Part shown: positions 2,795 through 40,962 of the stretch, one piece after another | How positions within the stretch are numbered: position 1 is the stretch's first letter | How the letters are laid out: every line of letters starts with the position of its first letter | Position numbers and translations under genes: made by a program | The notes under the pieces: generated by a model | What the model was told of the DNA's origin: nothing | Seen by the model: the letters and a program-made list of their open reading frames with translations, nothing else | The model's database searches: none | NCBI GenBank assembly: GCA_903813345.2 | Contig: CAIIXF020000004.1 | Span: 7,335,525 to 7,399,524, forward strand | Source: Owenia fusiformis | Lineage: Eukaryota > Annelida > Polychaeta > Sabellida > Oweniidae | DNA: 64,000 bases | Reading direction: 5' to 3'

Positions 2795-5700
2795 ATGCCA
2801 GCAGTAGTACTAATTTGGAGGGCAATTATTGGAATCTTTAATAACACTTTGCATTTATCTAGGAATTTTGATACTGAAATGAAATGCCATACCCTCTTCA
2901 GTAAGCAACAAAAGACATGGCTGGTAGTAATGTTGATATTATTTTTATTAATGCTTCTAATTAGCTCTTTTGGAGATGTACATTTCTCATTTATGTTGAA
3001 TGCTATAATGTTCTTATTAGTGCTATCATATCAAAGTATGATCATTTTAATTGTCTACTATTGCATCGGTTATATTTCTTTTACATCAAATACGTCATAC
3101 TTCAAGATTTTAATTAGAATATTTAAATTGCTTTCAATATTGCTGATATTTCATGGCTCACCTTTACTCGATTGCTTATATGATTGCTCTCAATTATTAT
3201 ATTTATCTGGTGACATTGAAAAAAATCCAGGTCCTATATCAGAATTACCCATATTATTTTCTAATATTAATAGTCTCAAAGCAAATAGTTTAGCACGTTT
3301 TGAAGCACTAAAGTTCAAAGTAAAAGAGCAACAAATTAAAGTTATTGCTCTATGTGAGGTGGGAAATTTGACAAATAGTGACATACAAAAAGATCTTAAA
3401 ATTGACAATTTTGAACTTAAACATTATAGATCAAATAATCGAGGTCTTATATTATATGTTCATAATTCATTAGAAGCTGAAATAATTCATGAACTAATGA
3501 ATGATACACTAGGAAATATTTGGTTAAATCTTAAAGTAAGTGGTAAACTATTCAATTATGGAGTATTTTATAGATCACCTTCACAAGATAAAATAAATAG
3601 ACTAGACTATTTCAAATTACTTGGTAAAAACCTTGAGGATGCTCAGAAACTTCCTGGATCAACTGTAGTAAATGGAGATTTTAATGCACGTAATTCTTTT
3701 TGGTGGAAAGATGATAAAGTTGATGAAGCAGGGACTAACTTGCACAACATCTTATTTGATCTTAATTTTATACAACTTATAGATGAACCAACAAGAGTGC
3801 AGTCTCGTAACAACTTTATTACTAAATCATGTATAGACTTGTCTTTTACAGATAATATTAATATAATTTCTAATCATAAAGTTCTACCACCAGTAGGAAA
3901 TACTGATCATTGCACTTTGTTAACATACCTAAAAATGAACATTATTAAAGAAACTCCAACCAAGAAAATCATTTGGCAATATGATAAACTTAATAAAACA
4001 ATATTGAATCAAAGAATACTTAATTCAAACTGGGGAGAGATCTTAGAACTTCAAAATGTTCATATTTCCACTCATAGGTTTGTTGATACTTTGTTCAACA
4101 TTTTTAAGGAAACAATTCCGCATAAAGAGGTTTTAATAAAAGAAAATGATCAGCCTTGGTTCAATTCTGATATAAAGAAGCAAATTAATAAACGAGATAG
4201 ACTTCACCATAAATTTAAACATTCAAATGATTTAACCTTTCTTCAAAAATACAAAGAACAAAGCTTATGTGTTGTAAATATGATAAATGAAGCTAAGCGT
4301 AAACATATAGAATCAACATGTGGAACTTTATCAGATTTAAATAGAAACTCAACAGATTACTGGATACTTTTGAAGAAGCTACTTGGAAAGTCATTTAATG
4401 TGTCACTGCCTTATTTACATTTAGATAATCCTAAACTATCTGCGGGATCTTCTTCTGAGAAAGCTGAACTTTTTCTTAAATATTTTATTCAGAAGAACAA
4501 TGTAGATCAAATACACGAACCATTACCAAATTTTCCTTTAAGGTGTAATCTAAACTTGGAAGATATTTTTACTGATAAGAATGAGGTCTTAAAACTACTT
4601 CAACAACTTGATGCATCAAAGGGGGAGGGGACAGATAAAATAAATAATAGAATGCTAATTTTATCAGCTGATACGATATGTGAACCATTGAGTTTGCTTT
4701 TTAACAAAATTTTTACATCTCATTGTTTCCCGAAGATTTGGAAAGAGGGTATTATTGTTCCACTACACAAGAAAGGAGATAGATCTAAAGTTGTCAATTA
4801 TAGACCAGTCACATTGTTAAATGCCTTATCTAAAGTTCTGGAAAAGATTATTTATGATAGAATTTTCAATCACATGATCCAAAATAACCTCTTTTACAGT
4901 TTTCAGTCAGGATTTCTTCCTAAGCATAATACCACTTCCCAACTTTCATATATAATTCATTGCATTCAAGAAGAATTGAATAATGGAAACAATGTAAGAA
5001 CTATCTTTCTTGATTTAGCGTCCGCTTTTGACGTCGTTCCGCATCAATTACTATTACAAAAGATGAGATCTTATGGCATCAACAATAATCTCTTACTTTT
5101 AATGAATTCATATCTGTCACAAAGACAAGTGAAGGTTAAAGTAAATAATTCTTTCTCGAAATGGTCAGAACCTGATTTTATCAATGCTGGTGTGCCTCAA
5201 GGCAGTGTATTAGGGCCGCTTATGTTTTTAATATATATAAATGATCTACCTGATAATCTAAATTGTAAGACTTTCATTTATGCAGATGATACATCAATCT
5301 TCCTTCCTTACTCTAAGAAAAGCCCTTTACTCTCTCAAAATCTGCAAATTGACCTAAATACAATTAAAACCTGGGCTGATACCTGGCAAATGAAATTTAA
5401 GGCATCAAAAAGTGCTGACCTGACTTTTACATCACCTTTAACTAACCCTGTTAATGAACCTATACTCTATTTGGGAGGTGACCCCATTCCTAAAACTATT
5501 AGTCATAAACACCTTGGTGTTATTTTAGATCAAAAGCTTAATTTCAAGGAACATGTTAATGAGCTCACCAAGGAATTACAGACAATCTTAAATCCATTTA
5601 AACAATTAACTCACATTCTTCGTTCGAATCATTTGGAAACCATATATAATTCTTTTATTCTAAGTAAAATTGATTATGCTGATATAATTTACAATAGTGC

Positions 5701-6481
5701 TCCAAATATAGCTACCAGCAAACTTGAAAGACTGCATTATAATGCAGCTTGTCTAATTTCCGGTGCTCTGCATGGTTCAAGCACCTATAAGGTCTTGAAG
5801 ACATTAAATTGGATTACTTTGTCTGAGAGAAGAAGAAGCCATCTTTGCTCATTTCTATTTAAAAGTAGAATCAATTTATCAGCTTCATATGTCACTGAAT
5901 TATTTAATAAATACTTACATGAACCAAATAGAATTCTAAGGGCTGTCAGAGAGTATATTGTGCCTCTAAATATCAGCATTTCATTTAGAAAATCTACATA
6001 TTTTGCTGCGATTGAAGAATGGAATGGTCTGCCTAATGATTTAAGAAATTGCAATAGAATATCAACTTTTAAAGGCAAACTTAGAAAGCATTTCGGGAAT
6101 GAAAAATGTATAAATATAATAGCATCACTTGATATCACTAGAAAAACTGAAATTATATTTAACAGGTTAAAAGTGGACCTATTTCTAAAAAGTCAATTAT
6201 TTGCTCATCACTTTACAAACATTGACTCACCAGCCTGTAACTGTGGTCATGAAAATGAAACCCCTACTCATTTTTTCCTCAAATGCCCCCAATTTGTAAA
6301 TGATAGAATCCAACTACTTATAGATCTCCATATTATTGGTTGTTTAGAAAAATTCTTAGATGCTAACTCTGTTAGCAAAGTAAATATGCTCTTGCATGGT
6401 AACAGTGAACTTAGTAATGAAGATAATACACTTCTGCTGAAAGCAACTTTAAAATTCCTACAAGCAACCAAGATTGACTAA
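2795..6481 (+). CDS. LINE ORF: 2A-like peptide, APE endonuclease, reverse transcriptase, zinc knuckle
   Basis: 1228 codons; the start is fixed by an in-frame TAA directly before ATG. Residues 41-120 contain several strongly hydrophobic stretches that look membrane-spanning. Residues 139-147 read GDIEKNPGP, matching the 2A consensus D-V/I-E-x-N-P-G-P; in known 2A peptides the ribosome skips the bond between G146 and P147, so the leader would be released from a 1082-residue polyprotein. Endonuclease motifs follow: N157, E188, GDFNARN at 294-300, TDH at 370-372. Reverse transcriptase motifs: FLDLASAFD with D740, PQGSVLGP at 801-808, YADD at 829-832. Near residues 1147-1163 a C-x-C-x(8)-H-x(4)-C zinc knuckle precedes the end. 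All catalytic residues I can identify are present and there is no internal stop, so the copy may be recent and competent. No separate ORF1 is seen. Confidence 0.93.
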   Translation: MPAVVLIWRAIIGIFNNTLHLSRNFDTEMKCHTLFSKQQKTWLVVMLILFLLMLLISSFGDVHFSFMLNAIMFLLVLSYQSMIILIVYYCIGYISFTSNTSYFKILIRIFKLLSILLIFHGSPLLDCLYDCSQLLYLSGDIEKNPGPISELPILFSNINSLKANSLARFEALKFKVKEQQIKVIALCEVGNLTNSDIQKDLKIDNFELKHYRSNNRGLILYVHNSLEAEIIHELMNDTLGNIWLNLKVSGKLFNYGVFYRSPSQDKINRLDYFKLLGKNLEDAQKLPGSTVVNGDFNARNSFWWKDDKVDEAGTNLHNILFDLNFIQLIDEPTRVQSRNNFITKSCIDLSFTDNINIISNHKVLPPVGNTDHCTLLTYLKMNIIKETPTKKIIWQYDKLNKTILNQRILNSNWGEILELQNVHISTHRFVDTLFNIFKETIPHKEVLIKENDQPWFNSDIKKQINKRDRLHHKFKHSNDLTFLQKYKEQSLCVVNMINEAKRKHIESTCGTLSDLNRNSTDYWILLKKLLGKSFNVSLPYLHLDNPKLSAGSSSEKAELFLKYFIQKNNVDQIHEPLPNFPLRCNLNLEDIFTDKNEVLKLLQQLDASKGEGTDKINNRMLILSADTICEPLSLLFNKIFTSHCFPKIWKEGIIVPLHKKGDRSKVVNYRPVTLLNALSKVLEKIIYDRIFNHMIQNNLFYSFQSGFLPKHNTTSQLSYIIHCIQEELNNGNNVRTIFLDLASAFDVVPHQLLLQKMRSYGINNNLLLLMNSYLSQRQVKVKVNNSFSKWSEPDFINAGVPQGSVLGPLMFLIYINDLPDNLNCKTFIYADDTSIFLPYSKKSPLLSQNLQIDLNTIKTWADTWQMKFKASKSADLTFTSPLTNPVNEPILYLGGDPIPKTISHKHLGVILDQKLNFKEHVNELTKELQTILNPFKQLTHILRSNHLETIYNSFILSKIDYADIIYNSAPNIATSKLERLHYNAACLISGALHGSSTYKVLKTLNWITLSERRRSHLCSFLFKSRINLSASYVTELFNKYLHEPNRILRAVREYIVPLNISISFRKSTYFAAIEEWNGLPNDLRNCNRISTFKGKLRKHFGNEKCINIIASLDITRKTEIIFNRLKVDLFLKSQLFAHHFTNIDSPACNCGHENETPTHFFLKCPQFVNDRIQLLIDLHIIGCLEKFLDANSVSKVNMLLHGNSELSNEDNTLLLKATLKFLQATKID
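3209..3235 (+). other. 2A-like ribosome-skipping peptide in LINE ORF
   Basis: The nine codons encode GDIEKNPGP, preceded by CLYDCSQLLYLS. The NPGP core and the D-x-E spacing are exact. 2A-like sequences are known in several APE-type LINEs of invertebrates, including sea urchin, amphioxus and molluscs. Skipping activity here is inferred, not shown. Confidence 0.85.
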
Positions 6482-9455: not shown

Positions 9456-9853
9456 TTCGCCTCAAGTTTTTTAGGTCTCTTGGCTTGGTATATTAGCATA
9501 AAAACGGTCCTTCAAATAGCTGCAGTAGAATTCCTAGTTTCCTGAGCCTCTGATCTCTCCGTAAGAAGACATTGAGTAGCATCCCTATTCGCCTCAAGTT
9601 TTTTAGGTCTCCTGGCTTGGTATATTAGCATAAAAACGGTCCTTCAAATAGCTGCAGTAGAATTCCTAGTTTCCTGAGCCTCTGATCTCTCCGTAAGAAG
9701 ACATTGAGTAGCATCCCTATTCGCCTCAAGTTTTTTAGGTCTCTTGGCTTGGTATATTAGCATAAAAACGGTCCTTCAAATGGCTGCAGTAGAATTCCTA
9801 GTTTCCCGAGCCTCTGATCTCTCCGTAAGAAGACATTGAGTAGCATCCCTATT
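9456..9853. repeat. 132-bp tandem repeat, three copies
   Basis: TTCGCCTCAAG starts at 9456, 9588 and 9720, each followed by the same 132 bases with a handful of substitutions. The third copy ends at GCATCCCTATTC, about 9853. Such low divergence implies recent amplification. The array lies 600 bp beyond the stop codon of the UNC93-like gene. Confidence 0.92.
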
Positions 9854-10453
9854 CACAAACGTTGACGCCTTTCTCAGGGGCTATTTGCTATGGTGGGTCC
9901 ATAGTTTCACGTGGAGGACTCTTAGTACATGTTTCGAGCTACATTTCCACACGGGGCTCCTATTTCATCTGGGCATTCACATTTTTACACGCATATTAAA
10001 ATTTCTTTGCATCGGTATTCACATTTCTCAAGATTTACGTGATATTGCACATTCACACATAGATTCACTGATTCAATCATAATTTTCATGACGATTTTCG
10101 TTCACATTGGGATTCATTTCTTCAGTTGTGAAATAATAAGTAATCCACCGATGTATGAACATTTGCAGAAGTAAATTGTGTTGCGGTTGCCCCTCTTCTC
10201 ATCTAACGAGGTTTCAGAATTTTAATTAGTCTTTCACTTTCAGAATATTCAACTTTCGCCAGTTACAAAATTCTCATTTATTGCTTCCTCAAACGAAATC
10301 AACTGCGTTTTCCACAGTTTTTGATAACTAGACACCATCCCTAACTTATAATTTGACCACAATACTCCTGTTTTCATAAATCCTTTTTATCCAAATGAAG
10401 GTTCACGTTTTAGCATCCTGACAATAGAACTACCATTACTCCATATATGGCAT
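9854..10453 (-). other. 3' flank / probable 3' UTR of the UNC93-like gene
   Basis: The sequence directly follows the stop codon on the minus strand. It contains one AATAAA at 10277-10282 and nothing else recognisable. Confidence 0.45.
10277..10282 (-). terminator. candidate polyadenylation signal AATAAA
   Basis: TTTATT on the plus strand reads AATAAA on the gene strand, about 170 bases past the stop codon at 10454. It is a position-based candidate only. Confidence 0.4.
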
Positions 10454-10689
10454 TCACTCTAAAGACTCTTCCGTCTCAAAATGATCGTTTTCCGATTTTC
10501 TTATTCTATACTCAGCTACAACATAAAACAAGATGGCGACAACCAAGAGAGTGATAATTATGTACAGTTTGACAGCGACGCACATGACAGCACTGAGGAA
10601 GAACGCTATTGATGCCCCGAGTCCTTGGAGCATTCGAAAGTTCGAGAAGGCGACCTCGTGATCATCTGGGCACGCTACGTGAACTAAAC
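10454..10689 (-). CDS. UNC93-like exon 6 and stop (residues 560-637)
   Basis: Acceptor TTTTGTAG|GTTTAG. Two membrane segments (GASIAFFLSAVMCVAVKLYI and a following helix) and a short charged tail ENDHFETEESLE, then TGA. Confidence 0.9.
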
Positions 10690-13600
10690 CTACAAAATGG
10701 AAGATGCATAAATCTGAGTGGAAATGACAGGGTTATTACCAATCGTTAGATAAGAAACAAGATAGAAGTTTTTATTTGACATTAGAGTGTAACTCTAAGT
10801 AGAAAAACACAAACATAATTACTCAGAGGCGAAATTAATGTATCGGATACGCAAAATAGTCCCAGAAGGTAGTACCTACACTATAATATATTACTACTTA
10901 CTATTACATTGCGTCTGCCACACGGCGTCACACATACCCCAGAAAGCTGACATCAGAAACACAACTGGCGTGACGCCTTTATCAGGCACCCATATCAGCA
11001 GGAAAACCATGAGACCGATATGTAATATTCCACCTAAAATGTTAAGTCAAATATGTTACTAAAGAGAATGAGCAGAGGGCATGCTTTGTACATTTTTTGG
11101 CGACGTGTGGCATATCTAGAGGTTCTTGCATAAGTGTAAGTTCAAGATTAAATTAAAGGAACTTTATTCTTTCATTTATATTACGTCAAAATATATATTT
11201 CACAAAATGTATAACTGTTGTTTATAAACTGGCGAGGTCATAAATGATTTCATTTAAGACATACTACAAAAGCCCAAATTTTCGCTGACAAAAAATTCAC
11301 TATTTTCAATCTGAAATGTATCATAGGCATTGAATTTCAATATTTGAAGAAATATCCAAATGAATTCAATCCTAAATCAATTATCCACTATGCCTTTAAT
11401 TTCACAGTCTAGCTTCTTGGCGAAAATAGTGGAAATTAGGACACTTTCAAAATTTGGACTTTTACAGTATGACGTTTTTATATGAAATATATCTGTATCT
11501 TAATGTAAGAGACTTGGCTGAATTTGAAGTAATCATATGGAAAATTATTTTTCAATTGACTTACCCAATCCTATTATTACTTCACGAGGGATATGCTTGG
11601 CAACGAACCCGATAAGTATGGAGCTGGCGATGTTGGCTAAACCTAGCATGATCATGCAGTATCCGATGTATTCAATACCCAAACTGCATGTAATGTAACT
11701 CTGGAAGATTTACAAGAGATGTTTCATCTAGTTATCTAATAATCTTTATCTCAAAATGTGTCTGAATTACTCTGTAACTTTGTGAAATGGATAGCACAAC
11801 ATTAAACCCCTGAAATACATTATTTGTATGGCGTTCGGTCCATGCATCTTTAAACAGAAAAATGAATTCAGACTGCAGGTTAAATTTGAAATTGCTTCTG
11901 TTGCAGCTATGATTGTAACAGCTTTCAAAGGGCTGTGTTACTATATCAAAAGTCCCCTCCCTTTCCCGATGCCTAGGTCACATTTGCTCCGATTCATTGG
12001 CCGGCTCCCGACCGATTGTTGTATTTTGTTCAGAACTGATTTCAACTTGCTTCAAATTGAACAAACCTTTTTTGTAAAGCATGTACAAGTTCAAGGAGTT
12101 CAAATCTGACCTCAAATTTGAGAGTTGATATTCAATTTAGAACAAAATACTCAATCGGCCGGGCGCCGGCCTATGAATCGGAGCAAATGTGATTAATGCA
12201 TTAGCAAACTATACCACAAATCTATTTTATATATTTAAGCTCTTTGGTAGTGTTAAAGGTTGCGTCTTTGAACTGCCCACGGTGCTAGTCAATTGCATAA
12301 TACTTAATAAGTTTTTTCCCCTAGGTATCACGAAAAAGTACAATGAGCCCCTGCGTTGCAAATACATGGTCACACATTTTCAACAAAAACAGTTCATCCA
12401 AGCACTTACACCGCTGATTACGATGTGTCAAACTCGTCTGGTAACCCCGTATGTCAACCGCGTCGGCTAGTTGCTAGTGCACCACAGGAGTTCGATTGCA
12501 ATAAACCGTGATGTCTTTCAAAGGAATCATGTGAGCGTAAGTGCGCTATGATGAGCTATTTTTGTTTAAAAAACATGAGCATGTAATTTGCTTTTGCAGG
12601 GCTTATAGTTCTTTTTAGTGATACCTGGCGAGAAAACTCATTAAAATATTACGCAATACTAGCATCGCGAGCATACAAAGATGCAGTCACAATGTGTATT
12701 TTTTAGAATTGATATTTCTAATTAATTATTTCACCTTATTATAATCAGCATACAGGAACCCTTGCTCAAATCCATTGAATATAAGAAGGGGTATTATAAG
12801 CCTGAAAGTCTTGTGGGTACACATCTGCCGCACATTTGCGCAGACAAGCTGAAATAAAAGAACATTGTTTAAGTATGTTCGGGTATTATAAGCCTGAAAG
12901 TCTTGTGGGTACACATCTGCCGCACATTTGCGCAGACAAGCTGAAATAAAAGAACATTGTTTAAGTATGTTCGGGTATTATAAGCCTGAAAGTCTTGTGG
13001 GTACACATCTACCGCACATTTGCGCAGACAGGCTGAAAAAAACATTGTTTAAGTTAGATGTTCGGGTATAATAAGCCTGAAAGTCTTGTGGGTACACATC
13101 TGCCGCACATTTGCGCAGACAAGCTGAAAAAACATTGTTTAAGTTAGATGTTCGGGTATTATAAGCCTGAAAGTCTTGTGGGTACACATCTGCCGCACAT
13201 TTGCGCAGACAAGCTGAAATAAAAGAACTGGTTAAGTTAGATGTTCGGGTACTATAAGCCTGAAAGTCTTGTGGGTACACATCTGCCGCACATTTGCGCA
13301 GACAAGCTGAAAAACATTGTTTAAGTTAGATGTTCGGGTATAATAAGCCTGAAAGTCTTGTGGGTACACATCTGCCGCACATTTGCGCAGACAAGCTGAA
13401 ATAAAAGAACATTGTTTAAGTTAGTCGGGTATTATAAGCCTGAAAGTCTTGTGGGTACACATCTGCACATTTACACAGACAAGCTGAAATGAAAGAACTG
13501 GTTAAGTTAGTCTATAGTCTGGTGTGTTATCTGTCTACAAACATCTCTGCAAATAATATAAACTAACTGAAAATATGGAATAGTATCATTTATCCCCGGG

Positions 13601-16600
13601 GATAACCCGGCTAAGGTTAAATATTTTTGCTAAAAGCTAAAATAATAGAAAATAACGATGCCATTAGATTTGACACAATTGCCAAAATTATGACTGATGG
13701 ATAATTCGTATGAATAGATTTACAGGGTGGCCAAAAATTCAACATTTTTATTTTGCAAAACAAACTTTTAAACACGCAATCGATCATGGAAAAATATTCC
13801 AGGAAATACAAAATAGAATATGACATGTTCATTTGAAAACGTCAATAAAAGACGTAGTGTGTTCGACTAAGAAAATAAAAAAAGTTAGGGGTGTTTATGC
13901 TTCACATCCTCGTGATTTGATCCCATGTTGTGTGTCTGAACGTAGACAACGAATTGCTTTATGTTTTGGAAGACACGTGGCATTATCTCTGCGCTCAATG
14001 TACGCTTCATCGTATACCAATGGCGTGACTAGAATAAACTAAATCATTTATCAATAGATAGGGAAGAATACTTAAGAGAACCCTTTTTGAGTTATACAAG
14101 TTTATGTAAATATATATATATTTTTTAATCATAAATGCTCTTTATTTCTTAAAATCATTAATAAATTTACATATTAATCAAGGCGTTATCGCCCAGAAAG
14201 GGCATTTCTACTGCTATTTCTACTGTACGTGAGCATGTAATATTTCGACCCCTGGGATTACTGTACGTATCAGTGTAAAGTTGATGCTTTTAAAAAATCC
14301 TCCCAATTCAGATACAATTGCAAAATTCTTATCGCCGTTAAGCTAAGGGTATTTATTCCATGTATTTATAACTAGTTGGGCATAGTCTGATCAAATTAAT
14401 CTAATGTCTACGAAACCTCAATAAATGTGGGCGGCTTAATTGTAACAACAACCATTCATATTAACATCTGTTGATCCTGTTTAAAAACACTTTCAGGCAT
14501 AAATGACAAATAATTTCAAGTTTTAAATCAAATTGATTGCTATTATATGTCGTTCACAAATTTAGAGTAGAAAATGACGTCATGTGGAAAGTGTTTTTTG
14601 CAGATACAAGATTTCCATTACACTGAAATGGTTAGCAGGCGTGGAAGTAACGTCTAATAATAAATCCCAAGGGTTATTGCATCAAAGCAAATTCTACGAA
14701 TTGAAGTATATAGACGCCGTGCTGATGTGGGGGAGTAAGATATACTTACTATCATGGGACCAATAAAGTATAAGTGCCAAATTATGTTATTTCATTTATG
14801 TAGTGATGCGCAAAGAGATAATAGACTGAGGACATAATGCCAATCATCTTTTAAATATTCATTAGTACAGGGTAACCGGAAAAGGGAGACCGAAAATATT
14901 TTGAATAACTTCTTTGATAATTATGATCCTTTTTCAGTTTTGCGAATTATATTCATATATTCACATAGCTCAAATGTTGAAGACATGTCATCTTTCCTGC
15001 TTTAGTACCAAAACATCATATGGGTGCAGCAATAGTTCTGAAAAGGTCAAGAAAAGGTGTCAAGAAAAGTGGTAATATTCAAGTTGGGTAAAAAGTTAGG
15101 ACTCATGGGACACTTGCCAGAAAAATATAATGTTTGTAAAATCCATCCAGATCGAAGGAGATCTAGAGCTGCAGACAAGATCGATGTTGTCTCAATGTCG
15201 TCAAAAGGATCGTTTTTGGCAGCCCTTGGTTGTCATAGGGGATTCCCCACACCCATACCGAGAATGATAGCAGCTAATTGGAGCATGTAATGCAAATGAA
15301 ACTTTTAGGAACTCTCCATATTACTGTACTGGAGTGTGCAAAATTTAATATATGCCAGGAAATTTTGCCCATTTCAATGGTCTCCTTTTTTCCGCTCACC
15401 CTGTACATTTCGAAAAAATATATCTAATATAGAAGCCAACCTGAAAAATGACCACATGATATTAATATCGAAAACAGCTGGGGTATCCTAGTAAAAAGTT
15501 ATACTTTAAATACTAGTAAATAATTTAGAAAATACCTATATAATAGACATGTCACGGGTGTAGCCAGGTATTAGGTAGAAGTAACCACAAAATCAATGAT
15601 CTTTAATATTGTGTCCACTACTACTTTTCCCCCAGCCTATGAGGCAGAATGACATTTTCTAAATATAAAAATGTTATTTAATTCGGAAATGTTTTTCAAC
15701 TGAAACTGCTCAAAAATCTCATGATAGCGACTAGCGGCTACCGGATTAACTTGCTATTTTATTGGCAACTCATTTAATTATGAATAGTAGTACTGTGCCT
15801 GTCACTATTCCATACATATTGAAATGAGTTGGTCATGAAATAGTAGGCTAATCCGGCAGCCGCAAGCCGTTAGTTACACTCGCGAATACAAGTTTTATCT
15901 TTCCTCAAAGTCGCCTCATCAAATCAAAATTGCCTCACATTTATTTAAAGATACTGGCTACGCCCTTGGATGTTTCCTCTTACTTCAATTGGCTTTCTTT
16001 CTATTTCGATCTTCGCACCAATTTTGTCCAGGCACAATAAGGCGAGTAGGAAACCTAGTAATGCTAGTGCGAGGAATACTCCCATTAGTTTCATCACAGT
16101 GATAGAGGCTGGTGTCATGGCTGAAATCATATGAAATCAAAGTATTAATTTGGCCTATGGTCCTATGTAATCACAGTAATAATTTGGTTTATGGTCCTAT
16201 GAGCAGCTTAAACAGCAGCGTTAATATCTCCCAAAATCACAAAAGTAAATTGGCAAATGGTCCTTTCGAATCAAAATAGTAAATTGGCTTATGATCCTAT
16301 AGAATCACAGTAATTTGAGCTTTGGTATTATAGAAAAAAATCACGAGAGTGCCTTGCCGTCCTATAGAATCACAGTAATATTGGATTTTGGTCCAATAGA
16401 ATCACGGTTAATCTCAAGAAACACATTGAATCACAGAAAATTAACAATAAACGAGGTTGGAAATACCTTTATGAAGTAGTATGTAGTAATTTAGGATAGG
16501 ACCATAAAATACCAGAATTTTGACAAATCACAGTGATTTAGACAGGGGTTATGGCTAGATGATAAAAACACTAGCTGAGGCTGGAGTGATAGAGACTGGG

Positions 16601-18262
16601 GTGAAGGACAAATTTACCCTTCATCAAGGAAAACGTTGAAAACAGAATTAAAACCTCGAAAGTACATCGTGTCATGAAGAAATAAACAAAACGCTTATAT
16701 CGATTGCGCCATCGTTAATGTCTCCCAAAGCCTCTCTGTGTACAATGTAATTACTTGTAAAAGCAATATATTTTAGGCCCCTACATTGTGCATTGTGTAT
16801 TGTGACCTTATTTCAACTTGTTTTTGTAGTCGTTAACATGACTGTACTTTCATATTTCTATCTAGTAAAATGATTGACCATTTGTGACCATTTGGGGTGA
16901 CAATTTTAAAATTGGTTTTCTTTAACCATTAATCGATATACGTCTTTCCATCAAATATGAAAAATCGTCCTCTACCGTTTGAGTTATTTCCCGGACGGAC
17001 GATGGGCTTCACTATATCCCGTCAAACGTCGTTCGTTGGGATAGGTTTTGAGTTGATCGATTCAGTCGGTGGTCAACACGGACAGAAGAAAATGTAATTT
17101 TACCTGTATGTGTTATATTCCACACACTTGGTATCGATCCATCACACTTGTCGTAGACGCCACAAGACAGTAAAAAACCATTATCAGGAACAGAACTATT
17201 TCTTCCAGGACTACTTGTCTTTTCATGGAGACCCCCTAGCATCACTGAAGAAATTAGATTTCCCCAAATATGGGTGGTTTGAAAACATGCAAGGAAGACG
17301 CCATTAAAACGGTATATTTTGTGCATTGGTACATCTTTCGAAACTTTTGCATAGCCAATTGCAAGTTTCTGGATGTATATAACCTGCGAGTTCCAGGCAA
17401 GGGACTGACCCAGTCCAACTCCAATGGAGGTCGGTATAAGAGTGTAATAATGCGGGTAAATGTTTGCAGTAATCCATAATAAGTAAAATATAAGTCCTAA
17501 TACTATTGCCCATTTTGCAGTTATTCGGTTTATGACGATTGGCGCATATAAACACGTAAGAACCATAGTGAGATGGACAAACGTCATGGAAACTACTCCT
17601 AGTCGTCCTTGAGGGTTCAAACTTGACTGAAGATTCTGAATGGATCTAAATGCTGTAAAGACACACAAAAAGCTGACGCACAATATGATCAAATTCTTTC
17701 TATACTTAATTGTATTCAAGAAAGGAACACTTGTTGTCGTGTCATCTGATATAATAGTTTCATCTTCGATCGTCTCAACAGATTGTTGTGCAACAGGACC
17801 ACTTCTCCTTGTTCCATGAGGGCTCGTTCCTTGGTGTCCATCAACACGGGGATATGGAGGCACAACTATGGATTCAACAATTTTACCATCTGGTGTAACA
17901 CTCCGTACTGGAGTTTCAAATTTTACAGGAGGTTCATCATCGAATGCATCATCGATTGAGTTAAGATCAATCGTTGATTTATTATCACTCTCTTCATGTT
18001 CTTTAATGGTGTCCATTTCCAATTCATCAGACTTTCTTGTTGCGCGTCTGTAACTATCCTTTCTCTTTTTCCTCACCATACCCTCAATGAAATCAAACGA
18101 TTTATCTATGGCGTCATTGTTTTCATGTTTTGCAGCATGTCTATAACTATCGTTTCGCCTGCCTTTGTTTTCCTGCGTTGCGAACAGATAACTTGGTCGC
18201 CTAGGTCTGTATAGGCTAAAATCGAAGCTCACGCCGCTGAGATCCCAAGGTGACAACGACAT
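10454..18262 (-). CDS. UNC93-like multi-pass membrane protein, six exons
   Basis: Coding exons on the minus strand: 18262-17104, 16120-15984, 12848-12735, 11700-11565, 11033-10902 and 10689-10454. They sum to 1914 bases, i.e. 637 residues plus stop, with consistent phase and GT/AG at every junction. The start has an in-frame TGA seven codons upstream and A at -3. Residues 1 to about 185 are a hydrophilic, charged N-terminal extension. The major-facilitator core begins at YRKNLIILCVSFLC (187) and carries about ten to twelve hydrophobic segments. Family signatures are QSSLN, GQSLAWNSQ, FQTTHIWGNLISS, GFLYADYNKSYITC (across an exon join), LGIEYIGYCMI, FWGMCDAVWQTQ and AFSNFRMLQGLG. N-x-S/T sites lie in the loop before residue 386. 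UNC93 proteins are major-facilitator relatives: nematode UNC-93 acts with a two-pore K+ channel and UNC93B1 traffics Toll-like receptors. Sequence resembles the UNC93A group; transport function is unproven. Confidence 0.93.
10902..11033 (-). CDS. UNC93-like exon 5 (residues 516-559)
   Basis: Acceptor ATTTTAG|GTGGAA. I chose donor AATA|GTAAGT over GTAATAG six bases earlier because it is the perfect consensus and gives CNSLVHVACPDDHEVAFSNFR, matching the usual length between the WQTQ and NYR/NFR motifs of the family. Confidence 0.88.
11565..11700 (-). CDS. UNC93-like exon 4 (residues 471-515)
   Basis: Acceptor ATCTTCCAG|AGTTAC, donor G|GTAAGT. Encodes SYITCSLGIEYIGYC and the following membrane helix, a highly characteristic UNC93 segment. 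Phase 0 to 1. Confidence 0.92.
11978..12192. mobile_element. ~215-bp MITE with ~53-bp terminal inverted repeats, carrying the satellite core
   Basis: The left arm starts TCACATTTGCTCCGATTCAT and the right arm ends with its complement at 12192; inverted similarity extends to GAACAAAAT. Between the arms, about 12041-12120 matches the core of the 447-bp satellite unit at 503-570. It lies in the intron between exons 3 and 4 of the UNC93-like gene. Two ORFs of 93 codons overlapping it are chance. Confidence 0.85.
12735..12848 (-). CDS. UNC93-like exon 3 (residues 433-470)
   Basis: Exactly 38 codons in phase 0, from LVCANVRQMCTHKTFRL to GFEQGFLYADYNK. Acceptor TTTATTTCAG, donor AAG|GTGAAA. The first 19-20 codons and the acceptor are the unit of the minisatellite that occupies the intron just upstream; only this copy continues into the rest of the exon and a donor site. 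Confidence 0.92.
12786..13510 (-). repeat. ~90-bp minisatellite duplicating a splice acceptor and half-exon, eight copies
   Basis: On the gene strand each unit holds a branch-point-like CTAAC or TACTTAAAC, a pyrimidine run, an AG acceptor, then the first 19-20 codons of exon 3 (LVCANVRQMCTHKTFRLIIP) and a break at CCCGAACAT. Copies start near 12791, 12886, 12977, 13067, 13157, 13250, 13338 and 13429. All keep the AG. Only the lowest-coordinate copy continues into FNGFEQGFLYADYNK and a donor. Reading through any other copy reaches TAA shortly after the break. Confidence 0.93.
13511..14867. other. intron 2 sequence without recognisable features
   Basis: Part of the 3.1-kb intron between exons 2 and 3 of the UNC93-like gene. 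A perfect 16-base palindrome TTATCCCCGGGGATAA lies at 13590-13605. An isolated mariner-like end TACAGGGTGGCCAAAAA occurs near 13720 without a partner. Short ORFs here have no support. Confidence 0.5.
14868..15403. mobile_element. 536-bp Tc1/mariner-type MITE
   Basis: The left end is CAGGGTAACCGGAAAAGGGA and the right end is its imperfect complement (TTCCGCTCACCCTG). TA directly flanks both sides (14866-14867 and 15404-15405), the typical Tc1/mariner target duplication. No transposase. Inserted in the same intron as the minisatellite. Confidence 0.8.
15734..15863. mobile_element. 130-bp foldback MITE
   Basis: Arms of about 40 bases (GCGGCTACCGGATTAA at the left, TAATCCGGCAGCCGC at the right) are inverted copies with few mismatches around a ~45-base loop. 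It lies 120 bases beyond the donor of exon 2. Confidence 0.7.
15984..16120 (-). CDS. UNC93-like exon 2 (residues 387-432)
   Basis: Acceptor ATTTCAG|CCATGACA restores the split codon to Ala. One long hydrophobic segment (GVFLALALLGFLLALLCL) and a charged tail follow. Donor GAA|GTAAGA. The open frame runs on past the donor to a stop, so a retained intron would truncate the protein. Confidence 0.9.
16135..16410. repeat. degenerate ~33-bp minisatellite next to exon 2
   Basis: The motif TGGCTTATGGTCCTATAGAA with TCACAGTAAT recurs about seven times with many changes. It starts only about 15 bases upstream of the exon 2 acceptor in transcript terms. Confidence 0.65.
16411..17103. other. intron 1, no features seen
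   Basis: The rest of the intron between exons 1 and 2 of the UNC93-like gene. Nothing recognisable on either strand. Confidence 0.5.
17104..18262 (-). CDS. UNC93-like exon 1 (residues 1-386)
   Basis: Encodes the N-terminal extension and the first half of the transporter core. It ends CATACAG|GTAAAA, splitting a codon after its first base. Low-complexity acidic and basic patches (RKKRKDSYRRATRK, EEHES-type stretches) fill residues 30-180. I see no signal peptide. Confidence 0.93.
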
Positions 18263-29173: not shown

Positions 29174-29709
29174 CATGGGCTTTCAACTAGAAGGGTATGC
29201 AACTCTATGTAATAACATGAGACCTTCAAAATGAGCAATGACATGCTTCCCTTTTATGGCAATATTTCAAAAAGTATTAGATAAATGTATATGTTTTAGT
29301 ATTATTTTGAATAAAAATCAATTTTTAATATGATTTAAGCATAAAATATATTCAATATCATATAAAAGTAAACAAAAGAGACCAATAAAAATGAGAGTTA
29401 TCAAGATGTTCTCTTTGAGTATTGCATTGTGGGTAATTATTCAAGAACACATTCCAATAAAAACATAATTTGTGGGAGAATGTTCACTTTCTATATTGTC
29501 ATGATTATGAAGAATTCCAATTTTTATTAAATTATCAAGATATATGTAGAAGATCATGTTTTTATTTTTGAGTTATTTCTTTTAATCATCAATAAAAAGT
29601 ACAAAATAAGATTTTCTTGGAATGTGTATGTTCTCCAATTTTGAAAACCCATGGCAATGTTTATGTATGAAATATGGGAAGTTGCCTACCCTTCTAGTTG
29701 AAAGCCCAT
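29174..29709. mobile_element. hAT-type MITE (~536 bp), present only in copy A
   Basis: Ends CATGGGCTTTCAACTAGAAG and the complement AGTTGAAAGCCCAT. It is flanked by the 8-base duplication GTTTTAAT (29166-29173 and 29710-29717), fitting the hAT preference nTnnnnAn. Copy B has the uninterrupted site at about 48455-48462. Confidence 0.88.
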
Positions 29710-29757
29710 GTTTTAATACAGTTTAATCTGTTATCATAGGTTTAGGAATCAGACAAT

Positions 29758-30624
29758 ATTAGAGAGATTTCGCACCTAGTGAAAGTACAACTTATAACGT
29801 ATACTTATACTTATAGGTAAACGTACAAGGTGTTTCATAATGTGGGCTTTTCGTCAGGAAAGATCTTCTCGGACTGTAATAAACACAGGTCAAAGGGATG
29901 CCATTTGTACTTTCTTGAATTGTGGCATGTTTAGTTGATCCAAATGTGTTTGTCTAGAATAAAATAGGCTCATATATAGTACATATGTTATAGACCCATC
30001 TCTTCTCAAATTGACTTTTTGAAGATGCTCGTTATGAAACACCCTGTATGTCATTTGTTTGGCTACTGAATGGGTCGTTTCCAGGAATTGCTAGAACCTA
30101 CTGGTTTGATTGGTGTTTCAAATTGATGGTTAAAGTATTTGATTGGATACTGTTCCCACTCAGCCAATTAATTTTAAAAAATGCTTGCGGTCAATTGTTC
30201 CACACACATGTAGGCAAATCTTTATACGGAGATCCAACTGTATACGTTATCATCTACGTAAATATACCGTTTTGTAAGTTTATTGAACTTATACTGATCA
30301 TGAAAACATTGAAATAATCAACTTGTTTATGTAGTGACTCACTTTAAAGAATCATGATTCACTTTAAAGGATCGTGTTTATAATATACTACAACTACAAG
30401 GACACGGAAGCAAGCATTTAATTATAATGTGCATAATCTACACGTGCAGATGACAGTGCATTCACAGTCTCTAGTTGATGGAGCTTTTCTATAACGGGAA
30501 TAGTTATGTTCCATTAAGTACAATTTAAAATTGATTTTAGTAAAAATAATAGTTCGACATGACCCTTTAAACTATACGTATACGTATAAGTTTTTACTTT
30601 CACTTATGTGCGAAATCTCTCTAT
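29758..30624. mobile_element. inverted-repeat element (~0.87 kb) interrupted by a mariner-type MITE
   Basis: AGAGAGATTTCGCACCTAGT with CTTATAACGTATAC near 29761-29810 has its inverted counterpart at 30577-30622. Arms are about 50 bases and imperfect. Target duplication not resolved. The copy B equivalent is near 48502-49369. Confidence 0.6.
29826..30046. mobile_element. 221-bp Tc1/mariner-type MITE, copy A
   Basis: Ends CAAGGTGTTTCATAATG and CGTTATGAAACACCCTG with TA on each side (29824-29825, 30047-30048). An 89-codon ORF starting in its right edge is not credible. Confidence 0.85.
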
Positions 30625-33600
30625 TATAACAATGAATGATACGGAAAATTTCGAAGTTTCCCGTCTGAAACTGGTATAATTTGTTATCATTGCTTGCTGC
30701 ATTATCAGCTGTTATAGGAAAAAACAGATTATACTCGATGATACAATTCCTCATTTGTGGCTAGAATTTGTTTACATTAGCTGACATGTTGACACAGACA
30801 TGTCGATTACATTTATGTACACCTTGTTATTATTGCTCAATAGTGGTACATTTAATGAAAGGTGAACTCATTCAATCAAATTAAATGAAGGTACCCATAA
30901 ATACTTTGTCATTAATCTGAACAATAAGTTATTCCGACTTTGTGATTACATATGATTTCTTTCAACACTTTGATTGCATGCCAGGGATTAAATTGTAATG
31001 TAATTGATCAACAGGATTATCATTTTTGAAACTCTCTGATCTACAAAATAATCCGACGTTCAATGTTTGGTTTGAATAATAAAACGTACATTTCAAACTT
31101 AGTAGTATGATGTGAAATATGTCTGTATTGAAAGAATGTTACAGAGGAGCGATACTATGCCCCATGTACTCACCACCTATGTGTGGATGCTAATACAAGT
31201 TTCTTGTATATCAATATTTTGATCAAGTCCCCCAGAACGCCAGAGGGCTTTAGTCATTTTTCAATTCTCATAATCTGACTTTTTATTTGAAAATTCGGAA
31301 TTTACCAATAACCTCATTTTTAAAGGCAACATAGTGAAATATTATATTGGCATAATGGCACCAATGAATTCTTTTAAAACAAAGGAAAATATCAATCTTG
31401 ACCATTTAAATATTGTAAAAGCATTTTAAATGGTCAGCAGATTATACTTATAGTCCTCGTGATTAATTTGACACCTTTGATCAGTTTTAAAATATCTAGA
31501 AAGAACAATACTGACCCAGGCGGCCTGTTTCTGTCACCTAGGATGGAGGGTATCACATATTTGATTACTGATTTGATTAAAGACTTAATTACAGACAAAT
31601 TGGCATGATTGCTTGTTACTTGATTACTTGTTATTTAATATCTCTATTCATTTTAATTTGCAATCTTGGTTTTAAATTCAAATTACTTATACACCTTTGA
31701 CAAAACTTTTTCTGTTTCCAAATATATGAAGATTTTACATTTATTGCAACTGTTTTATATCTGACAAAACAATACGTTTGATCAGATTAATTGGCGCATA
31801 GTAGGGCAAACTGATGCAAATGCTGAATATTTTGACATGTCAGAGCAATATGCTTAAATAAAACTTTAATCTCTAATTAATAATATCAGTGGATACTGTA
31901 TGTTTCGTTCACACTAATAATTAATCCATTTGTTAGACTAAATGGATTCATTTTTACAGCAGAGGGTTCTAATTTCCACAAACAATAATTTGCAAATGCA
32001 GTTCTTTATATTTATATTTGATTGTATAATATCCCTCGTGCTATGATTAGCATTGTGTTAAATTTCGATTTAATCGGTTAACTCATTGGAAAGTTAATTT
32101 TTAATAAAGGAATTTCTTCTTTTTTAATACCATTGTTTCTCTGAAGACCATGGTCACATTAAGTTTAAAACAAAGGCCCCCTCTAACAAACACACACAAG
32201 CGCCTGTATTCACTTATCCAACCACACAAACAGTCATGACACCAGACTGATAGATTAAGCATTTGCAATATAAGATAAATCCAATGAACCCTCAAGCCCA
32301 AATACATTACACATTTAATGCATATATCTACATGTAATAAGATATTAGGAAACATGCATTATTCAAATATGCCTTTCCTGCCGAAATAACACAAATTGGA
32401 GTGATTGTGTAATTGTTGTGTCTTTTTGATTTTTAATTCAAATTATTATTGAAACTTATTACCTGTATTATCATAAGTCCAGGTTAAATATCGGAATTAT
32501 CAAATTTTATAAGTCTTAGAGAACAATCTCCTGTTTTTATTGATTACCTAAACTTTCCTTCAAACTAAACAGTATTTTGAATAAGCATGTCCTTGGTATA
32601 AAACCCATTTCTATGCCTACAAATTAATGACCTCTATGATTTACATGACTAATAAATGTGATCGCACCTTTGTTAGCGAATGTTTCAACAGTGGTGCAAA
32701 AAACATCATTCAATCATATGTTTAATCAATTCAGATTAATATTGGAATTATCAAACAAATTAAGTCTTGAAGAATAATCTCTTGTTAAACCAAACTCAAT
32801 ATTTAGAATAAGCTATCTGTATAAAACTCGTATTTAATCCCCCCAATAAACATTCTATATGATGTATAATCAAGGTAATCGAAACTTTATCAAAATTTAG
32901 CACACAGTATATTTTACATTGATGCTTAACTATCATGCATGGGCATAGCCATCTTTCCGTCGGGTGCAATCGGTTTTCAGTCGGGGAGGGAGGGGAGGGG
33001 TTGGCGATCATGTCATTGGCGAGCCAACAAAATGTTTTTAAGATTTTTTTGATATTTAAAAAAAATTAATTTAACTTCCTCCAAAATCGAGCTACATGTA
33101 GAAACTTCAAACAAAAAGCATTTTAAAGCTGTTTTCTTCTTCTGCTAATGGTTCTATTCATTTGCCATGACCCATCGCCCATGTGAACAACAAGTGTAAA
33201 ATAACAGCAAAAACGTAGTAATTCAAAGTTAATCAAGATCAGTTATCCAATAATATTTTCCAAGCTTGAAGAACAAGTGGTGGACTTAGACATTAGCAAG
33301 GGGAGTGAGGATGTAATCTGGAAAACTGTCTTTTGACTTAGTTTTTAAAATACTTTTGGCACAAATGTTTTCGGCAATAGAATGGCCATTTTTAAAAGCA
33401 AGTTTGTCAAAACACAAGGCCTGGTTGCGGCACACATCATTGAAGAAGTAAAGATTATATTTCATAAAATCTAAAACAATTCTTAAACATTAACTGTAAT
33501 CAAGGTGATTCTCATTATATCAGCAGTTGGGAAAACAATACTAGGAAATAGCGGACCCAGGGACGGATTAAGCAGTAGTTTTAATCTTTTGTTTCATAAA

Positions 33601-34400
33601 ATATAACTAATCAGACATTCATAATAACATTTATTATACATGTATGTCTCTGAACTAATGTTTATGGTTTGACAAAGATTTGTGTCTCCAGTCCCGGGAG
33701 GGCCAAAATTATCCCATTCAGTTTTCCGCTACTTTTCAAGTGAGTTTTGGCCAAAATTGTCACTTTCCCTCCCATGGATATTGTTAAGTTATGACCCCCC
33801 CCCTTCATGCAAAAGCAGGCTACTGGCCCGTAATGTATGTTAACTGTCCAATATTGATCTCAGAGTCACCCTTTGCAATCAAATCTTATCCCTTAAATGA
33901 TTTGTAATCAGACAGACTAAAGCCAATTGTTTCTCCTCTACAGGATATACGTTTTCAGTCTTATTCATTTCTTTGTCTTAAGTGTTTCAACTATTTGGAG
34001 GTTTAATAAAAAAAAGAATGAATTATCTCATCAGATTTCTTAATTTAGTTCTTTTGACATAAAGTTATTTGATTTTTTTGCAGGGGAAATATGTTTATCT
34101 ACTTATTCATGGACCAATTTGGTTATTTTTCCTTGAAGCGGGATTAAGGAAAGCAGGTTGACATTTTGTTCATACATCACATCTGCCGCAGTTGGCAGTA
34201 ATAATACACGTTATAGTTTTATTTTATTTTATTTCCTAAGAGATTTAAGGATTGTTTTATAATAATATCTTACTTGTTATTTTGCCACTTGAACTATATA
34301 AATATTACAATTAGTCAAATATTACCAAAATTCTCAAATACTTCCTGAGTCTCAATAATTGGCTAAAACAAATATTTAAGAAGGTTTGTTTAATTAAGGT
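30625..34400. other. anonymous CACTA interior, copy A
   Basis: 3.8 kb of AT-rich sequence without a supported gene or obvious repeat. Longest ORFs are 84 and 71 codons, without domains. Repeated in copy B. Confidence 0.45.
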
Positions 34401-37200
34401 TATAATAATAATCTTTATTTCAAAACTTCTAAGGCCACAGGCCTCCTAGTTACAGTTAATTTTCATACAATTTTAGACAGTGATAAGCAAAACAACTTAA
34501 ATTACAAATTAATTTTTCATTTTCAGTTGACATTAACTGTATAAATTTTACCATATCTGGTCTATAACAATAATAATCTGGCAAATACATTTTTCTTAGA
34601 GATCTGAATTTCTCACATATCATAACCATGTGGTACTCATCTCCAATAATATTTACATTTGCTGCTAAACAGAACTTACAAAACCGTAGTTCCCTGGGCA
34701 CATTATTTCTTCGACCCATTTCAATTTCTAATGAATGATTACTACATCTCAATCGAGTTAGAGCAACTCTAAATTTATTTATATTTACATAGGAAAGATA
34801 TTTTTCTCTTTCCATCACTGTTTTAATATTACAATATGTTACCATTTTTGGTAATTCTGAAAGTCTAGCAGCCCACTCTTGACAGTAAATGTCTTTTAGC
34901 CTCTGCTTGAAACTTAAAATAAAAAGGTCCACATCACCTACTTCTTTGAAAGCCCAAACATCACCAAAGCCATTTGTACACAATAACTTTCTAACATGTG
35001 TTGCCCATGTAATATGGCCTGTTGAATCAAGGTTCTCTAACATAGAATAACAATGTTTTGGGATTCTCCCATTTTCCATCTCCATATTTAGTTTTAACCA
35101 ATATTTTACACATTTTGACATATATATTGTACATAATGGGTATCGTCCACATTCCCCTAGAACTGCCTCATTTGTTGTTTGTGATGCAACTTTAAGAAAT
35201 GATTTACAAAATTTTCTTTGAACCTTTTCCACTTGGTCGTAAACTTTAAAACCCCATATTTCTGAGCCATATGTTAAAATAGGAAGCGTCAGAGAATCGA
35301 AAAGTCTGAATCCCATTTCAAATGATAATGAGCCACCTAATTTTGAGATTTGGTTTATGACATGTAGTGACTTTCCACCTTGATTGGCTAGTGTTTTGGT
35401 TGCGACTGACCAGTTTAACCTAGAAGAAATCATTAAACCCAGATATTTGTAATAAGAAACTATTTCTACATTTTTACCCTTGTATAGCCATTTTTCATCC
35501 TTTTTAACAATACCACCATTTCTAAATACAATGATTTTAGTTTTCGAAAGGTTCACATTCATGCCAAATTTATCACAAAATTCTGATAGTATATTTAGCT
35601 GATTTTGCATATTTTCAACAGTATGATTTAAAAGACCAATGTCATCTGCGTATAAAAGTATATGTACATTATCCACACTTTCTGTTACAAATATTCCTTC
35701 AATTTCTGAACATTTATACATTTTTACTAACTGTTCTAAATATAAAATGAACAGAAAAGGGCTAATCATACAACCTTGTCTTGTACCTACTTGGCACATA
35801 AATGATTGGGTAAGACCATCTGGTGTTCTAACACATGATTTTAATTTACAGTACATAGATTGTAATGTTTTGAGAAAAGCTCCATGAACATCCTCCTTAA
35901 GTAAGTTATACCACATTTGCTTATGAGGAATAGAATCAAATGCCTTGCTAAAATCAACAAATGCTATAAAACAGCGCCCTCTGGATTTACATAAATATTT
36001 TTCTACCATAGCAGAGAGACTAAATATATGATCATAAGTGCTTTTGCCTTCTTGATATGCTCCTTGATGGTCACCTATTTTGTGATTTGTTTTAGCCCAC
36101 TTAATAAATCTATTCGCTAGAACCTTTGTAAAAATCTTACCAAGTGTACAAAGTAAAGATATACCCCTGTAATTATTAACATTGTCAACTGGTGTTTTTT
36201 TTAATAATGCTGCAATGATAGCCTCGCTCCACAAATTTGGAAAGTAGCCATTTGACATGATAGAATTGAACAATAAATGAACATATGGCATTAAAGTGTC
36301 ATAACTATGTTGATACATCTCATATGTGATCCCATCTATACCATGGGCTTTCTTACTTTTTAAATTTGTAATTACATTTTCAATTTCCACTACAGATATA
36401 TTACAGTTCAGTTCATCTGGTAAATTTTGTAAACATTGATTGCAATCATTTTGGTCATGATTTTTGAGAAAGTCATCTACAACATTTTGAAAGTCTTTAT
36501 CTATATCGGAATCTGTAGTAAGCAAATTTTTGAAATACTCATACCATTCGACTGGTGAAATATGACCTTTTGTTTGAGACCCTTTTACATACTTAATCAA
36601 TTGCCATAATTTATTTACATCATTCATACAATCTCTACATTTGCTCATAAATTCATTTTCATATACCTGTTTCTTATTTCTACATAATAGCTTGAACTCT
36701 TTTTTGATTGTTATATAGGCAATTGAAGATTCATTTGATTTTGAATTCCTATAATTAAGAAGACTATTTATTTTCCTTTTCTTTAATTTTGCACAATCAC
36801 CATCCCACCAATCATCAGTTTTTGTATTTTGATTCCTCGGTTTAACTTTCATGCATTCAGCTCCATAGTTAATACATTTCACAATTTTATCAACAGCACC
36901 ATCTATGTTTCCATTTTGAATCATATCGTTAAATCCCCTTAATATATTTTGGGATGTTTGGTCACGAATTTTGCTTTTAAATATATTGACTTTATCAGGC
37001 TTCCAAATATACCTGTCATATTGTCGCATGTTTTGTTGATCATTTCTATTTGCTGAATGTAACATCAATTTGAGATCACAAGTTATTGGAAAATGATCCG
37101 TTCCCTCAGATGTATTAATATTGCCCACAGTTTAATTAAGGTCTGGACTAATCAAAACAAAGTCTTTTGAAATTCCAAACTGTATAATACAGTATCATCT
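34401..37200 (-). mobile_element. 5'-truncated non-LTR retrotransposon, copy A
   Basis: Runs on the minus strand. The 3' end at 34402-34425 carries AATAAAG followed by ATTATTATTATA, a short 3' repeat tail. The 5' end is lost within the endonuclease region at about 37200: residues like DFVLISPDLN precede an in-frame TAA (37131-37133), then the long ORF starts. It lies inside the CACTA-type element. Confidence 0.85.
34456..37128 (-). CDS. LINE reverse transcriptase ORF (endonuclease truncated), copy A
   Basis: 890 residues. It begins at the last endonuclease motif (GTDHFPI, residues 9-15). RT motifs: LWSEAIIAALLKK (299-311), FVDFSKAFDSI (390-400), TRQGCMISP (449-457) and LYADDIGLL with the catalytic DD at 495-496. 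A C-x2-C...H...C cluster (CKFCLAANVN onward) lies near the C-terminus. The RT looks intact, but with most of the endonuclease gone and a stop at the junction this copy is unlikely to move on its own. The sequence differs from the 2A-bearing LINE and belongs to another family. Confidence 0.88.
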   Translation of the reverse strand: MGNINTSEGTDHFPITCDLKLMLHSANRNDQQNMRQYDRYIWKPDKVNIFKSKIRDQTSQNILRGFNDMIQNGNIDGAVDKIVKCINYGAECMKVKPRNQNTKTDDWWDGDCAKLKKRKINSLLNYRNSKSNESSIAYITIKKEFKLLCRNKKQVYENEFMSKCRDCMNDVNKLWQLIKYVKGSQTKGHISPVEWYEYFKNLLTTDSDIDKDFQNVVDDFLKNHDQNDCNQCLQNLPDELNCNISVVEIENVITNLKSKKAHGIDGITYEMYQHSYDTLMPYVHLLFNSIMSNGYFPNLWSEAIIAALLKKTPVDNVNNYRGISLLCTLGKIFTKVLANRFIKWAKTNHKIGDHQGAYQEGKSTYDHIFSLSAMVEKYLCKSRGRCFIAFVDFSKAFDSIPHKQMWYNLLKEDVHGAFLKTLQSMYCKLKSCVRTPDGLTQSFMCQVGTRQGCMISPFLFILYLEQLVKMYKCSEIEGIFVTESVDNVHILLYADDIGLLNHTVENMQNQLNILSEFCDKFGMNVNLSKTKIIVFRNGGIVKKDEKWLYKGKNVEIVSYYKYLGLMISSRLNWSVATKTLANQGGKSLHVINQISKLGGSLSFEMGFRLFDSLTLPILTYGSEIWGFKVYDQVEKVQRKFCKSFLKVASQTTNEAVLGECGRYPLCTIYMSKCVKYWLKLNMEMENGRIPKHCYSMLENLDSTGHITWATHVRKLLCTNGFGDVWAFKEVGDVDLFILSFKQRLKDIYCQEWAARLSELPKMVTYCNIKTVMEREKYLSYVNINKFRVALTRLRCSNHSLEIEMGRRNNVPRELRFCKFCLAANVNIIGDEYHMVMICEKFRSLRKMYLPDYYCYRPDMVKFIQLMSTENEKLICNLSCFAYHCLKLYEN

Positions 37201-37763
37201 GTTTGTCATTGGTATAATCTAGTTTAATTTGTATTATACTAAAAAATGAATGTTATAATAGGAAATGATACAGGTATAATCCTGTTAAATCTGAGGTGAT
37301 ACTAAATTATATCAACTGATATTGGAATATATTTTTGTATAATTTAGTCAGATGTTTTAATTTTGAATGATATTATTTGTGATACTGGATTAAACAACAG
37401 ATTAAACATTAATATAAGATGTTATCATACATATTAATCAAGGGATTTTACATAGTGTTTGTGGTTGAAAAAAATCGTAATTTTATAAGTTTTAAAATCG
37501 GAGGTTTAACGAAAACGAAGGAATCTATGCAACCATCTTGAATGAAGCTAACTGCAGTTAGAGTTATCCATCTGTGGAACAGTGGTAATGCAGTCTATCA
37601 GCCAAGTCCTCGGTAGAAATACAACTACATACATTCCGTCTCGCATTATTGGTTACCGAAACAAAGAATAAATCTTAGAAAAGCGATTGTATTATCAAAT
37701 ATTCTGTTTTCAAAGTTATAGTTACAGGATCGATTAAAATATTGCTATTGTACCAAAAGTAGC

Positions 37764-37835
37764 CTCCCCGGCGGGGAATCGAACCCCGGTCTCCCGCGTG
37801 ACAGGCGGGGATACTCACCACTATACTACCGAGGA
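37764..37835 (-). tRNA. tRNA-Asp(GTC)
   Basis: Identical in sequence to the gene at 28679. The T-run downstream is T4 (CTACTTTTGG). The -16 position reads TATTCTA instead of TATTATA. Confidence 0.94.
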
Positions 37836-38470
37836 CTTGGCTGGTAGAATACATTACCGCTTTTCCACAGGTGGATGACTCTAACTGCAGTATTCTTTAT
37901 TCAAGATGGTTGCCGAAGTTCTTTCGCGTTCGATAAACCTCCGATTTCAGATAAACTAAATTGAATCTGGTTTTCAAATGTTTCGCCATGCAAATTAATA
38001 AAGCTACGATGGTAAATGACCTCAAATAAATGCTCAAACAATCGCGATATTGGAGAATTTTAAAGAATTGGCTTTACTTAGAATGACTCTAAGTGAAGTT
38101 GATGATGACGTAATGATGACGTGGATCATCAACTTCAATTAGAAGCCATTTTCTTTAAAATGCTCTAATATTGCGGGTGTTTGGGCATTCATTTGTGGTT
38201 GAAAACAATCGTAGTTTTATAAGTTTTAAAATAGGAGGTTTAACGAAAACGAAAGAATCTATGTGCAACCATTTTTGAATGAAGCTAACTGCAGTTAGAG
38301 TTATCCATCTGTGGAACAGTGGTAATGCAGTCTATCAGCCAAGTCCTCGGTAGAAATACAACTTCATACACTGAATAAAACTTAGAAACGCGATTGTATA
38401 ATCAAATATTCTGTTTTCAAAGTTATAGTTACAGAATCGATTAAAATATTGCTATTGTACCAAAAGTAGC

Positions 38471-38542
38471 CTCCCCGGCGGGGAATCGAACCCCGGTCTC
38501 CCGCGTGACAGGCGGGGATACTCACCACTATACTACCGAGGA
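38471..38542 (-). tRNA. tRNA-Asp(GTC)
   Basis: Intact 72-base gene 707 bp from the previous one, T4 terminator. Its 5' flank is cut 70 bases upstream by the TTAA-site insertion, leaving the conserved ACTGCAGT block in place. Confidence 0.94.
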
Positions 38543-38611
38543 CTTGGCTGGTAGAACACATTACCGCTTTTGCAAAGCTGGATGACTCTAACTGCAGTAT
38601 TCTTTATTTAA

Positions 38612-40790: not shown

Positions 40791-40962
40791 TTAAGGTGGT
40801 TGCCGAAATTCTTTCGCGTTCGATTAACCTCCGATTTCAGCTAAACTAAATTGAAAATGTTTCGCCATGCAAATTAATAAAGCTACGATGGTAAATGACC
40901 TCAAATAACAATCGCGATATTGGAGAATTTTAAAGAATTGGCTTTACTTAGAATGACTTTAA

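Follow-up and report, generated by a model that had tools for sequence, protein, structure and literature searches.

The UNC93-like gene of the annelid Owenia fusiformis described here carries eight tandem copies of a segment that joins the end of its predicted intron 2 to the start of its coding exon 3 (12789..13510, minus strand). We believe that this is very likely a mirage-type minisatellite, that is, a minisatellite that has grown across a splice border, and that its presence is probably close to neutral. Positions are those of the window, which is the whole stretch of DNA that we analysed, 64,000 nucleotides in length (assembly GCA_903813345.2, contig CAIIXF020000004.1, positions 7,335,525 to 7,399,524 of the forward strand).

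The array and its host gene

The gene runs on the minus strand from about 18262 to 10454 and, when it is read through copy 8 of the array, is predicted to have six coding exons and a product of 637 amino acids. In the model, coding exon 1 is at 17104..18262, exon 2 at 15984..16120, exon 3 at 12735..12848, exon 4 at 11565..11700, exon 5 at 10902..11033 and exon 6, including the stop codon, at 10454..10689. We chose the first ATG as the start of exon 1, and the true start may differ. Each of the five introns has GT-AG borders and leaves the reading frame intact. Exon 3 is 114 nt long (38 codons), is in phase 0 at both ends and has the donor AAG/gtgaaata (the slash marks the splice border). The 637-aa product matches the Pfam family UNC-93 (PF05978) with an E value of 3.2e-28 and 99.4 bits, against a curated cut-off of 22.9, and covers positions 10-377 of the 379 in the profile; exon 1 has a Pfam match as well. 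PDB chains named 'Protein unc-93 homolog B1' match the product with an E value of 8.9e-25, and exon 3 falls inside one stretch aligned to those chains (query 367-623, with small gaps). The gene bearing the array is predicted to be an otherwise intact-looking UNC93-like gene. About 600 bp past its stop there is another tandem repeat, a 132-bp unit present three times with 98% matches (9456-9854), which is perhaps in the 3' untranslated part of the gene.

TRF calls the array with a period of 92, 7.9 copies, 91% matches and a score of 1133 (12789-13509). Each unit is 88-93 bp long, with about 30 nt derived from the intron (a branch-point-like motif, a pyrimidine tract and the AG) followed by the first 59 nt of coding exon 3. 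The acceptor motif TTTCAG/C[TC]TGTCTG is found at all eight copies on the minus strand, and the first exon bases of copies 1 to 8 are at 13483, 13395, 13306, 13213, 13123, 13032, 12940 and 12848, so the spacing is 88-93 nt. The exon-derived part of copy 1 (13428..13483) has a 3-nt deletion and is 56 nt long. Those of copies 2 to 7 are at 13337..13395, 13248..13306, 13155..13213, 13065..13123, 12974..13032 and 12882..12940, all on the minus strand, and copy 8 supplies the first 59 nt of exon 3 itself. Copy 8 is the only one that continues into a donor (predicted exon 12848-12735). Chance resemblance falls far short of explaining the repeat itself.

The initial annotation had described this as eight tandem copies of about 90 bp inside an UNC93-like gene, each holding a splice acceptor and half an exon, with the AG kept in every copy, the rest of the exon and a donor present only in the last, and an upstream donor at 15984. 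Our analysis agrees on each of these points: the AG is retained at eight of eight copies, 59 nt of the 114-nt exon lie in the unit when the border is taken from the gene model, the donor of exon 3 follows position 12735, and the upstream donor, with 15984 as its last exon base, reads GAA/gtaagagg.

How the copies differ

The exon-derived parts of the eight copies translate to LVCANVRQMCTHKTFRLII or close variants of it. The intron-derived leads come in three types. Copies 2, 7 and 8 have GTTCTTTTATTTCAG with AACAATG, copies 3, 5 and 6 have a shorter tract, and copies 1 and 4 have AACCAGTTC. That last type is absent from copies 2 and 3, which is what exchange within the array would give, and this suggests that several units were exchanged together. 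Copy 1 is the most divergent, with a mean of 10.3 events to the other copies compared to 4.4-6.4 for the remaining ones. Its divergence at the outer edge resembles the pattern reported for the boundary units in the BflGb6 mirage of amphioxus. Copy 8, at the 3' boundary, is not divergent, and copies 7 and 8 do not differ anywhere over the unit. The identity of these two would fit recent growth at the 3' end and does not fit an escape from homogenisation at both edges.

The upstream copies look unconstrained for coding, as copy 6 has an in-frame TAG in place of CAG and copy 1 has lost 3 nt. We considered selection on the exon part from mean pairwise differences of 0.029 for the exon and 0.165 for the intron, and we rejected it because the intron value is inflated by alignment around indels. 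Variant events, which we counted by hand, occur at 7 in 59 exon positions and 6 in 33 intron positions, and these do not differ significantly (Fisher p 0.53).

We propose that the array began with a tandem duplication whose unit by chance spanned the junction of intron 2 with coding exon 3, and that unequal exchange or replication slippage may then have raised the number of copies to eight. The intron would have become longer, with seven of the copies at its 3' end.

Acceptor choice and its consequences

There are pyrimidines at 10-12 of 17 positions at all eight acceptors of the array and at 11-12 at the other four acceptors of the gene. Copies 1-6 have CTAAC, whose branch A is 19-25 nt ahead of the exon, while copies 7 and 8 have only TACTTAA. 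CTAAC is the closer of the two to the branch-point consensus. The branch motifs of the upstream copies thus look at least as good as that of copy 8. With similar tracts and a weaker branch motif in copy 8, the letters alone give no preference for the last acceptor. The acceptor that is needed is not the best one by sequence, and leakage to upstream copies is plausible. The upstream acceptors are also transcribed before that of copy 8, which counts against a neutral array. The advantage of the copy 8 acceptor is a short exon (114 nt) with a donor behind it. As it is only there that the exon is short and a donor follows, we infer that mature mRNA comes mainly from the last acceptor, with the exon starting at 12848.

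With any of the seven upstream acceptors, the predicted exon is 206-749 nt long and the predicted product ends after 439-456 residues. In all seven cases the predicted stop precedes the exon 3/4 junction by 134-686 nt. Nonsense-mediated decay is expected when a stop is more than 50 nt before a later junction, so messages from the upstream acceptors would be expected to decay. The initial annotation had anticipated a poison isoform if upstream copies are used, and the stops are placed as such an isoform would require. It had also said that reading through an upstream copy meets a TAA soon after the unit break, which is true for six of the seven; copy 6 stops earlier, at the TAG in its exon-derived part. 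The copies are homologous, so the AG in every copy and the stop in every copy should each be counted as closer to a single inherited fact than to eight separate observations. If an upstream copy is occasionally used, the truncated, decay-prone message would presumably be tolerated at some low level.

An unlikely alternative, along the lines of the initial annotation, is that the upstream acceptors are frequently used as decoys and that decay of the truncated messages lets repeat number set the amount of UNC93-like protein. It would draw on the AG and pyrimidine tract at the seven upstream acceptors, the better branch-like motif in copies 1-6, and stops ahead of the exon 3/4 junction from all seven. 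However, the extended exons are long (206-749 nt vs 114 nt), copies 1 and 6 are degrading, and the similar rates of variant events in the exon and intron parts give no sign of selection on the acceptors. In addition, the published amphioxus mirages reportedly leave splicing undisturbed (PMC3087553, PMC3902484). One can go further and picture an unstable minisatellite with seven decoys, most of them having the better branch motif, ahead of one weaker productive acceptor, in which the repeat number varies among individuals, perhaps among cells, and sets the amount of full-length UNC93-like transporter. We would give this more far-reaching version a rather poor chance. In our view the array is more likely to be largely tolerated than to be useful.

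It is also quite improbable that the eight copies are false or miscounted because of an assembly error. The BflGb6 mirage does seem to be misassembled in one amphioxus draft (PMC3087553). However, most copies here differ from one another, unlike the stutter of a single copy, with the exception of copies 7 and 8. When we searched the array DNA against the chromosome-scale assembly, it gave a single match and we found no second haplotype, although a lack of further matches is no proof.

Border-straddling arrays in this genome and in other organisms

We surveyed 77 loci chosen by protein family: 20 of 28 matches for UNC93, 19 of 19 for globin, 30 of 106 for P450 and 8 of 29 for ADH (COesterase, with 99 matches, was left out). 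An array crosses the end of a matched exon at one of the 77 loci, or one per 154 match ends, where the end of the family match serves as a proxy for the exon end, only matched exons are covered and not every locus is an independent gene (e.g. L004 and L019). A laxer cut-off adds one more locus (L006), whose array is inside an exon. The single case is a globin locus, L040 (C8:33372449-33372682), where a 171-bp unit is present twice in tandem with 92% identity (locus positions 1690-2030) over the 3' end of an exon, an apparent donor GTAAGT and the following intron. From its apparent donor, this is the donor-side counterpart of the UNC93-like array and a second border-straddling duplication in the genome.

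Arrays with a period of at least 30 make up 3.03% of the 270,507 bases sampled, or 1.62% and 0.92% with stricter cut-offs. In the window they make up 5.21%, a figure that includes the UNC93-like array. At one straddle per 154 ends, the frequency does not exceed what such coverage would produce. Chance placement is therefore sufficient and borders need not be specially targeted, although a single event underlies this estimate. Elsewhere in the window, a 446-bp unit is repeated 3.6 times with 94% matches at 475-2089, and a 1228-codon frame at 2795-6481 on the plus strand has an endonuclease domain and a reverse transcriptase domain (Pfam RVT_1, 3.4e-32) and belongs to a LINE-like element. A segment of at least 15.5 kb is directly duplicated with 99.8% identity (29709-45255 and 48454-64000); the duplication reaches the window end and is either a recent tandem duplication or a haplotype duplicate of the assembly. 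Both of its halves hold an 891-codon frame that is reverse-transcriptase-like by eye (34456-37131 and 53201-55865, minus strand), and the second is split into two overlapping frames.

The genome has at least 28 matches to the UNC-93 family (PF05978). We found no array over the ends of the matched exons in the 20 of these 28 that we surveyed, where the matched exon is mostly not exon 3 and one locus (L017) is exon 1 of the array-bearing gene itself. At one locus (L013), we found a single copy of the exon that matches residues 429-470 within the stretch examined. For several paralogues the tblastn alignment passes without a break through the first residues encoded by exon 3, which suggests that not all of the paralogues have intron 2.

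The intron-exon origin of antifreeze genes is a possible precedent for repeats of this kind. A prawn lectin with repeats (PMC7536079) turned out not to concern border repeats. The initial annotation had called minisatellites that straddle a splice border rarely described, and this did not hold up. Such arrays have a name in amphioxus, 'mirages', which PMC3087553 credits to a 2002 paper in Nucl Acids Res, and human and potato cases are reported too (PMC2812944, PMC4974935). Mirages are described at Adh3 and at the globins BflGb6 and BflGb9 (PMC3087553), and PMC3902484 adds one at PGBD5 and cites TnC (troponin C). The BflGb6 mirage reportedly joins an intron's 3' end to the 5' part of exon 2. 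Its two haplotypes are described as carrying 6 and 3 units, which are 81-100% identical, with divergent boundary units (PMC3087553). To the authors of that study, RT-PCR and the Adh3 data suggest that regular splicing goes on undisturbed.

As far as these accounts describe them, the amphioxus mirages and the UNC93-like array both consist of tandem units over an intron-exon border (a predicted one in our case) with splice signals in many units. BflGb6 shares the arrangement of the UNC93-like array, the 3' end of an intron plus the 5' part of an exon, and the globin L040 mirrors the form reported for BflGb9. The units differ in length, being 88-93 bp in the UNC93-like array, 150-160 bp in BflGb6 and 10-72 bp in Adh3 (PMC3087553). 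The term was coined for cephalochordates and our host is an annelid, so we speak of a mirage-type array and not of an amphioxus mirage. An earlier report of this locus was not found in the literature that we searched, and that search was not exhaustive.

The human and potato cases are related in other ways. Human genes in segmental duplications are reported to have internal tandem repeats that are likewise on exon-intron borders, vary in copy number and can alter splicing (PMC2812944). Those repeats have transcript support, whereas splicing at the UNC93-like array is predicted. In potato, an RdRp gene is described as having likewise duplicated a border that includes the branch site, pyrimidine tract and acceptor (PMC4974935), and there the tandem duplication gave a new intron; the UNC93-like array has eight copies and its units contain no donor-like GT. 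That the units here act with a usable donor, and so amount to intron gain by tandem duplication, is very hard to credit even with the potato case and the new introns that human tandem repeats at such borders reportedly can form (PMC2812944), since none of the 43 GT scored in the array is donor-like and the best scores 0.57, compared to 3.02-4.68 for the five predicted donors of the gene.

Within the literature cited here, the name mirage is otherwise applied to lancelets only, and the UNC93-like array apparently brings this type of array to a new phylum, the annelids. Its near-identical acceptors in a row are a natural test of how the spliceosome chooses. Border-spanning arrays are also possible raw material for new introns, and if copy number affected expression, they would offer a simple route to heritable variation.
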